NCBI RefSeq assembly: GCF_022865125.1
Contig: NZ_CP094828.1
Location: 3,837,219-3,901,218 of the forward strand
DNA from: Acuticoccus sp. I52.16.1
GTDB lineage: Bacteria; Pseudomonadota; Alphaproteobacteria; Rhizobiales; Amorphaceae
Length of the DNA stretch: 64,000 nt
Direction: 5' to 3'
The stretch's first letter is position 1, and the number at the start of each line of letters is the position of its first letter. Below, in pieces: positions 14,810-33,951 of the stretch. The translations under genes were made by a program, and so were the position numbers. The notes beneath the pieces are model-generated. The model saw only the letters and a list, made by a program, of their open reading frames with translations. It had not been told where the DNA came from and did no database searches.

Positions 14810-15253
14810 ATGAAACGGGTTGACGTCATGGCGCCGCGAAAACAGCCGAATCCGATCGACATTCATGTCGGCAGTCGACTGAAGTTGCGCCGAACGATGG
14901 TGGGGATGACGCAGGAGAAGCTGGGCGACCAGCTCGGCGTGACGTTCCAGCAGGTGCAGAAGTACGAGAAGGGTGCGAACCGCATCGGCGCGAGCCGCTT
15001 GCAAGAAATCGCCCGTATTCTGACCGTCCCCGTTGCATATTTCTTCGAAGACGCGAAAGAAAATAACCCCGACGCCGACCGCAACATGGAGTACGGCTTC
15101 GCCGAGGACCTGGGCACGGCGTTCGACCTGCCGCACGTTCCGAGCGGTGAAGCCCATGCGCTGGCAAGGGCCTTCAGCCGCATATCAGATGCCCGAATTC
15201 GCCGCAGAATCATCGATCTGGTGGAAACCCTCGCGGACGGCCAGCGCCCCTGA
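14810..15253 (+). CDS. XRE-family helix-turn-helix regulator
   Basis: A 147-residue DNA-binding protein. The HTH_3 domain covers about residues 18-75, with the recognition helix in TFQQVQKYEKGANRIGASRL. The C-terminal half is short and alpha-helical. It belongs to the small alphaproteobacterial family often encoded directly before metK. ATG 14810 follows GAGGGAA; an in-frame ATG at 14828 is possible. Its targets are unknown; control of the downstream metK is plausible from position only. The 183-bp spacer before it probably holds its promoter. Confidence 0.88.
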   Translation: MKRVDVMAPRKQPNPIDIHVGSRLKLRRTMVGMTQEKLGDQLGVTFQQVQKYEKGANRIGASRLQEIARILTVPVAYFFEDAKENNPDADRNMEYGFAEDLGTAFDLPHVPSGEAHALARAFSRISDARIRRRIIDLVETLADGQRP

Positions 15254-15383
15254 GCGACCACCCCGCCGGACATCTCGGCTTTCGGCTAACTGACCGGTTT
15301 GCAAACTCATCGTCGTGTTGACGGCGTCAGGCCGATCTGATTGATGAATGCGCCGCCCGCGAGGACCCCTTTCGCGGCGCGGT

Positions 15384-15458: not shown

Positions 15459-16634
<1,176 letters not shown>

Positions 16635-16635
16635 C

Positions 16636-17814
16636 GTGCCGGCCGGCCTCGCTGATCCTCAGCGGGGCCACTGCGAGGGGGCGCCGTCGCCAGGCGCGCG
16701 CCCCGTTGCGGCCGAGGTCGCCATTCGTGTCGCCCGGTCGGACGACCGCGGCGCGATCGGCGGTATCATCGCCGACGCGTTCGAAGGGCGCGAGGCCGTC
16801 ATCGGCCGCCCGCCTGCACCGCTTTCGCTGGACATTGCCGAGGCCATCGCCACCTGCACCGTGCTCATCGCCAGTGTGGGCGCAAGCCCGTGCGGCGTGC
16901 TGGTCGCGCAGACGGACGCCGAGGGCGACGTCTACGTCGAGGCGGTCGCGGTGACGAAGGACTTCGCCGGGCTCGGCGTCGGCCGGGCTTTGATGCGGCG
17001 GATCGAGCGACAGGCCCGCCGCTCCGGCGCCCGCACGATCACGCTCTATACGACCGCGCGCGTGGCGCGGAACCTGGAATTCTACCGCCGGCTCGGCTAT
17101 CGCGAGGCCCGCCGCAGCGGCATGTCCGCGTTCGAGCGGGTACATTTCGAGAAGCCGCTGCTGGGCCGGGCGCAGAAGGCACCGGTCGACGGCCTCTACG
17201 GCCGCCGCCGCACCCACGGCCACAAGGTCGACCCGGCCTACGACCGCCTCGCGTTGGATCTCGCACAGCCGGCCGACCTCGCGGCGCTGTTCGCCGGCCG
17301 CCCGGTGCGGCTGGAGGTCGGCTTCGGCGGGGGCGAGCATCTGTTGCACCACGCCCGCACGGCGCCGGACGTCGGCCTCGTCGGCGTCGAGCCGTTCGAG
17401 ACCGGGATGATGCGCACCGCCGCGGCCGTCGAGGCCGAGGGCCTTTCCAATGTGCGCCTCTATATGGGTGACGCGCGGCGGGTGCTGGACTGGCTGCCGG
17501 AGGGCGCGCTGGAGCGGGCGGACGTGCTCTACCCCGATCCCTGGCACAAGCAGCGCCACTGGAAGCGCCGCTTCATCTCCGAGGACGGGCTCGACCGGCT
17601 CGCCCGCGCGGTGCGGGCCGGCGGGGTCGTGCGCTTCGCTTCGGACATCCCGACCTATGTGGACTGGACCCGCGCCCATGTCGCGGCGCACGACGCCTTC
17701 GACCTGACCGAGGACACCGCCACGCCCTATGCCGGCTGGCCCGGCACGCGCTACGAGGCGAAGGCCCTGCGCGAAGGCCGCACGCCGCGCTACCTGACGC
17801 TCACGCGGCGCTGA
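16636..17814 (+). CDS. trmB: GNAT acetyltransferase fused to tRNA (guanine-N7-)-methyltransferase TrmB
   Basis: A single 392-codon frame holds two domains. Residues about 30-170 are a GNAT acetyltransferase with the acetyl-CoA loop FAGLGVGRALMRRI and the NLEFYRRLGY block. Residues about 185-392 are TrmB, with LEVGFGGGEHLL (SAM motif I), GVEPFETGM, and the catalytic YPDPWHKQRHWKRRF. TrmB makes m7G46 in tRNA; the GNAT substrate is unknown. GTG 16636 lies one base after the metK stop; TTG 16606 inside metK is an alternative. An in-frame ATG at 17122 could give a TrmB-only product. The fusion is not the usual state of TrmB. Confidence 0.88.
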   Translation: MPAGLADPQRGHCEGAPSPGARPVAAEVAIRVARSDDRGAIGGIIADAFEGREAVIGRPPAPLSLDIAEAIATCTVLIASVGASPCGVLVAQTDAEGDVYVEAVAVTKDFAGLGVGRALMRRIERQARRSGARTITLYTTARVARNLEFYRRLGYREARRSGMSAFERVHFEKPLLGRAQKAPVDGLYGRRRTHGHKVDPAYDRLALDLAQPADLAALFAGRPVRLEVGFGGGEHLLHHARTAPDVGLVGVEPFETGMMRTAAAVEAEGLSNVRLYMGDARRVLDWLPEGALERADVLYPDPWHKQRHWKRRFISEDGLDRLARAVRAGGVVRFASDIPTYVDWTRAHVAAHDAFDLTEDTATPYAGWPGTRYEAKALREGRTPRYLTLTRR

Positions 17815-18367
17815 GCGTCAGCGCCGCCGTCTCGATCTTGCGGGCGGTGTCGAAGTTGCGGCCGGTGCCGCGGGTACCGAGCGTCTTTTCGATCAGCGCC
17901 GTCGTCAGCTTCGAGCGGCCGACCCCGTCCGGATAGACCGCGAAGAGCGTGGTGCCGACCGCCGCGACTTCCTCCCGCCCCGCAATGGCGGCGGCGAGTG
18001 CGGCGACCCGCGCCGCGTCCGGCGTGTTCCTGAGCGGCATGACGACGAGCTTGCGCGGCGTCTCGGCGGCGACGGCGGGGAAGGGGTTGGCGGCGAGCGT
18101 CGCCGACCAGTCCTTCCCCAGGCGGACGATCACCTCGGTGGCGACGCCCGGGTCGGCGGCGAGCCGGTCGGCGAGGGCGGCCGCGAAGGCATCCGGGGCC
18201 GTGCCGGCGGGGAGGCGGAAGACCGCGTTCCCCGTCTGCAGGACCGTCACGGCGTCGGTGCCGCCGAGGCTGGTGACGGCGCGGGCGAGGTCGGTCATGG
18301 CGAGGCGGCCATGCCCCGCCACGTTGACGGCGCGCAGGAAGGCGATCGCGACCGGCGCGCCGGCCAC
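17801..18367 (-). CDS. DUF1697 family protein
   Basis: A 188-residue protein. The N-terminal IAFLRAVNVAGHGRLAMTDL and the following TVLQTGNAVF match DUF1697, a family of unknown function. It starts with GTG at 18367, one base after the maeB stop, so it is probably translated from the maeB transcript. Its last 14 bases overlap the end of the convergent trmB gene. Confidence 0.85.
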   Translation of the reverse strand: MAGAPVAIAFLRAVNVAGHGRLAMTDLARAVTSLGGTDAVTVLQTGNAVFRLPAGTAPDAFAAALADRLAADPGVATEVIVRLGKDWSATLAANPFPAVAAETPRKLVVMPLRNTPDAARVAALAAAIAGREEVAAVGTTLFAVYPDGVGRSKLTTALIEKTLGTRGTGRNFDTARKIETAALTLSAA

Positions 18368-33542: not shown

Positions 33543-33918
33543 GCCAGCCGGTCGGACGGCCGCTCCGACAAGGTCGAAAGGCCGTCGGGGAGGAAAGTCC
33601 GGGCTCCACGGAAACACGGCGCCGGGTAACGCCCGGCGGGGGTGACCCCAGGGAAAGTGCCACAGAAATCAGACCGCCGGCGGGTTCGCCCGCCGGTAAG
33701 GGTGAAACGGTGGGGTAAGAGCCCACCGCGGAGGCGGCAACGTCTCCGGCACGGCAAACCCCGCCGGGAGCAAGACCGCATAGGGGTGGTGGCGCGTTTC
33801 CGGCCATAACCACCCGGGTGGGTCGCAGGAGGCGTCCGGCAACGGGCGTCCCAGATGAATGGTCGTCACGTGAGGGTTCGCCCTCGCCATACAGAACCCG
33901 GCTTACAGACCGGCTGGC
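33543..33918 (+). ncRNA. rnpB: RNase P RNA, bacterial class A
   Basis: About 376 nt. The conserved core is complete: GAGGAAAGTCCGGGCTCC (P4 5' region and neighbours) at 33590, ACAGAAATCAGACCG, GGTAAGAGCCCACCGC, CAGATGAATGG and ACAGAACCCGGCTTACAGACC. The P1 helix pairs CCAGCCGGTC (33544-33553) with GACCGGCTGG (33908-33917). This is the catalytic RNA that matures tRNA 5' ends. Location directly before mraZ is typical of alphaproteobacteria. Several open frames cross this region and are not genes. Confidence 0.96.
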
Positions 33919-33951
33919 AAACCTCTCCTCGTTAACTCTGATCGGGCCGCC

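Follow-up and report, generated by a model that had tools for sequence, protein, structure and literature searches.

The closest described systems to the protein reported here are bacterial TrmB, the tRNA m7G46 methyltransferase (PF02390, TIGR00091), and proteins in which TrmB is part of a longer chain. In Escherichia coli TrmB, alanine at R26, D144, H151, R154, R155, D180, T217 or E220 lowers activity to less than 10%, and the N-terminal tail that carries R26, which is unresolved in the structure, is needed for tRNA binding, as stated in the sections of PMC10130221 drawn on here. In the bifunctional PrmC-TrmB protein (NCBIfam NF002421), TrmB is the C-terminal half, and there is a long TrmB model of 396 positions (NCBIfam NF010719). 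Eukaryotic tRNA methyltransferase fusions are named in excerpts of PMC4033218, none of which pairs TrmB with a GNAT domain, and excerpts of an m7G review (PMC6320965) hold no mention of the word “fused.” We found no description of a GNAT–TrmB fusion in the excerpted open-licence literature.

The window, by which we mean the whole 64,000-nucleotide stretch of the Acuticoccus sp. I52.16.1 genome that was analysed, carries such a fusion. One frame is open without interruption on the + strand from GTG 16636 to the stop codon at 17812–17814 (393 codons including the stop, as read from the ORF). The preliminary description read this frame as a GNAT domain followed by TrmB, and that reading was borne out by the open frame itself, by Pfam matches to both domains and by the same architecture in all eight genus genomes examined. 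We concluded that the GNAT–TrmB fusion is real and is conserved genus-wide among the members examined. Both halves are of known kinds. The features of the locus are given below, with the domain edges of the fusion protein placed by eye; L001 is the window's fusion, L001–L008 are the eight fusions of the genus, and A3 is a profile made from six stand-alone GNATs of the order.

15459..16634, + strand: metK (S-adenosylmethionine synthetase), the upstream neighbour; NCBIfam metK model, 482.5 bits; likely TTG start, stop codon TGA at 16632-16634
16606..16634, + strand: stretch shared by the fusion frame and the 3' end of metK; TTG 16606 is one possible start, and L002, L003 and L007 also have TTG at this position
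16636..17814, + strand: GNAT-TrmB fusion gene; 392 aa if read from GTG 16636
16636..16713, + strand: N-terminal leader, residues ~1–26; species-variable, and none after the metK stop in L004, L005, L006 and L008
16714..17160, + strand: GNAT domain, residues ~27–175; Pfam PF00583; matched by the stand-alone family profile A3 at 112 bits
16951..16989, + strand: acetyl-CoA loop region VTKDFAGLGVGRA; glycines retained, with A where five other fusions have Q
17122..17124, + strand: internal ATG, common to three of the eight species
17161..17196, + strand: interdomain linker of 12 residues; 12 or 13 across the eight fusions, counted by eye
17197..17811, + strand: TrmB domain, residues 188–392; Pfam PF02390 and matches to TrmB chains in the PDB
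17314..17340, + strand: SAM-binding motif EVGFGGGEH, invariant across the eight fusions except at V228
17533..17571, + strand: PDPWHKQRHWKRR; D301, H308, R311 and R312 correspond to E. coli D144, H151, R154 and R155 in the alignment to 3dxx
17746..17757, + strand: TRYE; T371 and E374 are the counterparts of E. coli T217 and E220

Both domains score above their Pfam cut-offs. Acetyltransf_1 (PF00583) matches residues 74–155 of the fusion protein at 48.3 bits (cut-off, 20.7), a second GNAT model (PF13508) also exceeds its cut-off (44.4 versus 27), and Methyltransf_4 (PF02390) matches residues 222–382 at 119.2 bits (cut-off, 24). The NCBIfam TrmB model TIGR00091 gives the window's fusion 107.5, slightly below the cut-off of 112.65. 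On the same model the seven other fusions range from 101.1 to 115.7, and the stand-alone TrmBs of relatives score 116.2 (L010), 110.8 (L015) and 110.4 (L048), the latter two also below the cut-off; the passes among the 10 relatives scanned are L006, at 115.7, and L010. Since stand-alone TrmBs and other fusions score alike, a value under the TIGR00091 cut-off is not by itself a sign of decay. The window's protein does not reach the RimI model TIGR01575 (28.1 bits versus a cut-off of 86.4), and none of the five A3 members scanned (of six) reached an NCBIfam cut-off.

Set against the described systems, the fusion keeps eight residues reported to matter in E. coli TrmB and is the sole full TrmB of its genome but differs from bacterial TrmB in the added N-terminal GNAT domain of ~150 residues. 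It resembles PrmC-TrmB in having TrmB as its C-terminal half; there, however, the partner is a methyltransferase and not a GNAT, and NF002421 matches the fusion over the TrmB part only. The long TrmB model NF010719 has a similar total length but matches the fusion at positions 124-251 only and not in the GNAT half. With the stand-alone GNAT family represented by A3, the fusion shares the IGR.P motif, GxGxG, LYT, Y..LG(Y/F).E and the final R..F.K, whereas it differs in being joined to TrmB and in the change of A3-invariant residues in all eight fusions, with more such changes in the window's subclade. A TrmB name alone conceals the second domain, which is a warning for annotation.

By HMM alignment to 3dxx, E. 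coli D144, H151, R154, R155, D180, T217 and E220 correspond to D301, H308, R311, R312, D337, T371 and E374 of the fusion (the 3dxx chain numbering offset of 29 was counted by hand), and R26 corresponds to R191, placed by eye. None of these eight residues varies among the fusions, and because of this conservation we infer that the C-terminal half likely makes m7G46 in tRNA from SAM. The status of sole full TrmB comes from a PF02390 search of the window's genome, in which the second match (L032, G000 contig C1:1044522-1044662) covers 47 of 173 positions at 25.3 bits, against a cut-off of 24, and is likely another SAM methyltransferase.

A search of relatives for the two-domain architecture, suggested in the preliminary description, found it in all eight genus genomes examined, with protein identities of 50–75% to the window's fusion, and in neither of the two sister-genus genomes (these 10 genomes being the family sample). 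In the samples of the order, class and phylum, which overlap and in which fusions with a very different GNAT could escape the search, matches were found at 1e-12 in 388 of 397 genomes, at 1e-40 in 219 of 289 and at 1e-50 in 67 of 299, respectively; among the matches listed, only the eight genus members span both domains in the order sample and only the window's genome does so in the class sample, and in the phylum sample the window's genome alone spans both. One phylum-sample match, in G876, starts within the GNAT end of the profile, and its frame of 267 residues is too short for two domains. Apparent GNAT-side extensions of TrmB matches (G147, G266, G364, G083, L047, L058 and L110) were also followed up and rejected; tblastn at 1e-3 found the TrmB half only in all seven, and the extensions look like chance.

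The trees of the two halves point to a common history. The eight fused GNATs form one group with support 99/99 in a GNAT tree of 35 rows (the 8 fused sequences and 27 stand-alone ones taken from the better matches), and the eight fused TrmBs form one group with support 100/100 in a TrmB tree of 41 rows (8 fused, 19 of the 22 loci L009–L030, the other three having given no motif match, and 14 picked from 80 named loci), in which the placement of the sister genus is not resolved. Midpoint roots were used for drawing only, and the reading of one origin relies on a single branch setting each fused group apart from the rest. By this measure, the fusion probably arose once.

The stand-alone GNAT family is scattered: of 150 genomes of the order, 46 gave a match at 1e-25, three fused genomes included. 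Searched against the genus genomes, A3 matched the fusion of every one of the eight with values of 1e-29 to 1e-45, the next best match being partial, at 7e-12, and the fusion was the sole close copy of that GNAT family found by this search. The sister genome G009 has a stand-alone copy that matches A3 at 7e-69; the other sister genome, G008, gave no A3 match at 1e-8. In three long open frames with a stand-alone GNAT (L170, L138 and L169), Pfam finds the GNAT alone and no other enzyme fused to it. At L132:1789-2391 (+), we observed a weak TrmB-like match (27%, E 7e-4) on the strand opposite to an adjoining stand-alone GNAT of the same family, and this is probably a general methyltransferase.

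The preliminary description took the position of the fusion beside metK as a clue to SAM supply, an idea that the gene order of relatives does not support: metK lies directly 5' of a stand-alone trmB in 80 of the 102 relatives' loci examined (in the remainder, the metK motif had no match in 16 and trmB had none in 6; L011 and L053 carry identical TrmB, so that the 102 loci are not all independent). In those 80 loci, 187–444 bases separate the TrmB GFG motif from the stop of metK, which leaves no room for a GNAT. The neighbours lnt, an HTH gene, metK and trmB are the same in the window, in G009 and in G004 and G007 (judged by eye from composition-based gene calls), and these four also have in common an opposite-strand neighbour, which we take to be malic enzyme. 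Thus, the metK–trmB adjacency looks ancestral, and since metK directly precedes trmB in relatives without a GNAT-sized gap, the GNAT was most likely inserted into an old neighbour pair. A capture in the ancestor of the genus, by which a GNAT of the scattered stand-alone family would have landed between metK and trmB and been fused in frame to trmB, is well supported.

On balance, we lean towards a two-domain protein, derived from that one ancestral capture and fusion, as the best explanation. Its C-terminal half would methylate tRNA as set out above, and its GNAT half would be a working acetyl-CoA-dependent acetyltransferase with a substrate of its own. The fusion would couple expression of the GNAT to that of trmB and would hold it by TrmB's tRNA-binding N-terminal tail, so that the GNAT may have been retained for this tie of expression and position rather than for two reactions on one substrate. 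Such a fusion is a natural tether, and it suggests what a GNAT sits near in the cell. A neutral operon fusion, in which two independent enzymes came to share a chain without any benefit from the join, draws on the same old gene order, with metK before trmB, and on the fact that PrmC-TrmB is a curated bifunctional family. Retention of the fusion in all eight species, which have diverged to 50% identity, together with a linker of near-constant length, speaks against it, and we find it doubtful.

The acetyl-CoA loop motif of GNATs is (Q/R)xxGx(G/A). The loop had been described as intact, and this holds for G-x-G-x-G, which is kept in all eight fusions, but not for the residue before the glycines, which is A in the window's fusion (S in L002 and A in L003) and Q in the five others. 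Stand-alone members have Q or H at that position (H in two of the six A3 members), and since they vary, the family does not hold the first position of the loop constant either. All eight fusions likewise retain L-x-T in LYT, along with much of the GNAT core. Three A3 residues that do not vary among its six members, Tyr34, Asn87 and Phe106, are replaced in every fusion; outside A3, however, L138 differs at all three of these positions and L170 at one, as judged by eye, and because the wider stand-alone family varies there too, the changes do not prove that the function is new. Additional GNAT substitutions, for example, Tyr to Arg, occur in the window's subclade, and on this comparison of residues it is possible that GNAT activity has been changed or weakened.

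Between species, identity is 37–72% in the GNAT half versus 55–83% in TrmB. For the three closest pairs, L001-L002, L001-L003 and L002-L003, dN/dS values were 0.18/0.69, 0.26/0.84 and 0.22/0.61 in the GNAT half and 0.12/0.51, 0.13/0.70 and 0.12/1.06 in TrmB, which give ratios of 0.26–0.36 versus 0.11–0.24. More distant pairs gave GNAT values of 0.68/0.65 (L002-L004) and 0.75/0.75 (L002-L006), a ratio of ~1 obtained by a simple method and with unreliable dS, and for this reason selection on the GNAT half is claimed for the close pairs only, all of them inside the window's subclade, in which the GNAT looks to be under selection. The faster evolution of the GNAT and the dN/dS near 1 in some distant pairs, along with the long branch (1.07) leading to the window's subclade in the GNAT tree and the loss there of the loop Q and of several residues common in the family, would suit a degenerate or non-catalytic acetyl-CoA-binding module that tunes the activity, stability or solubility of TrmB. 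We nevertheless consider such a module unlikely, given the loop glycines, L-x-T and core kept in all eight fusions and the low ratios of the three closest pairs. The best-scoring solved chains for the GNAT family profile (1y9k, 9cr5 and 6wqb) offer no transferable substrate.

Coupling of acetylation to tRNA methylation, as raised in the preliminary description, is only possible. The GNAT might acetylate the tRNA held by TrmB, or a group on it, so that one molecule would receive two modifications from two cofactors. A structural connection to tRNA is hinted at only by the attachment of the GNAT at TrmB's N-terminal tail, whose R26 is needed for tRNA binding in E. coli (PMC10130221, sections drawn on here). 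A linker held at 12 or 13 residues also fits this reading; against it, no target is indicated, the three stand-alone relatives in long open frames lack a second Pfam domain, and no other tie to a tRNA enzyme was seen, and we judge it quite unlikely. TapT/DTW makes acp3U47, which adjoins G46; the acp3U47 group was entertained as the GNAT target and rejected, as PF03942 has no match in the window's genome. A dual enzyme, in which TrmB methylates G46 and the tethered GNAT acetylates the same tRNA or an attached group, seems to us improbable; if true, the product would be an acetylated tRNA of a kind not yet known, and tRNA modification would be tied to the supply of both SAM and acetyl-CoA.

GTG 16636, one base past the metK TGA, is one of several candidate starts for the fusion, and the mechanical ORF list places the start of the frame at TTG 16606, within metK. 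In L001–L008, the first GNAT strand, the beginning of which was set by eye, lies 79, 79, 166, 1, 1, −2, 31 and 1 bases from the metK stop, respectively, and every one of these distances is 1 modulo 3. In four of the eight species (L004, L005, L006 and L008) no ATG, GTG or TTG separates the GNAT domain from the metK stop, and the last 75 bases of metK contain one or more such codons in every species: a TTG at −29 in L001, L002, L003 and L007, a TTG at −17 in L008 and an ATG or GTG at −74 to −56 in L004, L005 and L006. The rarer codons CTG and ATC also lie close to the metK stop in the last three. The Leu codon that creates the −29 TTG is CTT in four of the seven fused species with Leu there, three of the four being close relatives, versus 5 of 74 controls. 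Among 78 controls, 9 stand-alone trmB genes were flagged because no canonical start followed metK (L074 and L123 among these reflecting mis-set motif positions), so that a missing start at this place is not unique to the fusion. Judging from the placement of these codons, translation of the fusion probably starts inside the 3' end of metK.

In all eight species the fusion frame is +1 relative to metK, as would be expected if a +1 frameshift from metK produced a three-enzyme chain. We considered this reading; no common slippery site is visible by eye, however, and start codons within the 3' end of metK are a simpler entry. A short TrmB made from ATG 17122, another proposal of the preliminary description, gains no support. 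This ATG, in the last part of the GNAT and 75 bases 5' of the YGRR motif, occurs only in L002, L003 and the window and, by eye, lacks a well-placed Shine–Dalgarno sequence; the other species carry other internal start codons in that stretch, which may serve as starts, but none is at one position in all eight. That two adjacent genes were joined through a sequencing or assembly error, the circumstance named at the outset as fatal to the fusion, is refuted by its presence in eight separate genomes and can be given practically no weight.

Some further observations concern the surroundings of the gene. The apparent start of metK is TTG 15459, and an ORF read from ATG 15348 would be 37 residues longer. 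Rfam found no SAM riboswitch upstream of metK; its one gathering-score match in the whole window is RNase P RNA class A at 33544-33921 (+), with 307.5 bits, and between 14600 and 18000 it gave a single subthreshold match, to the ALIL pseudoknot at 15253-15355 (+) (15 bits versus 50; E 0.99), which is probably chance. A defence role was rejected, the one PADLOC match, to the methyltransferase half, being weak (E 0.0012). Downstream, a DUF1697 gene at 17801-18367 (−) converges on the fusion gene and shares its final 14 bases, tail to tail.
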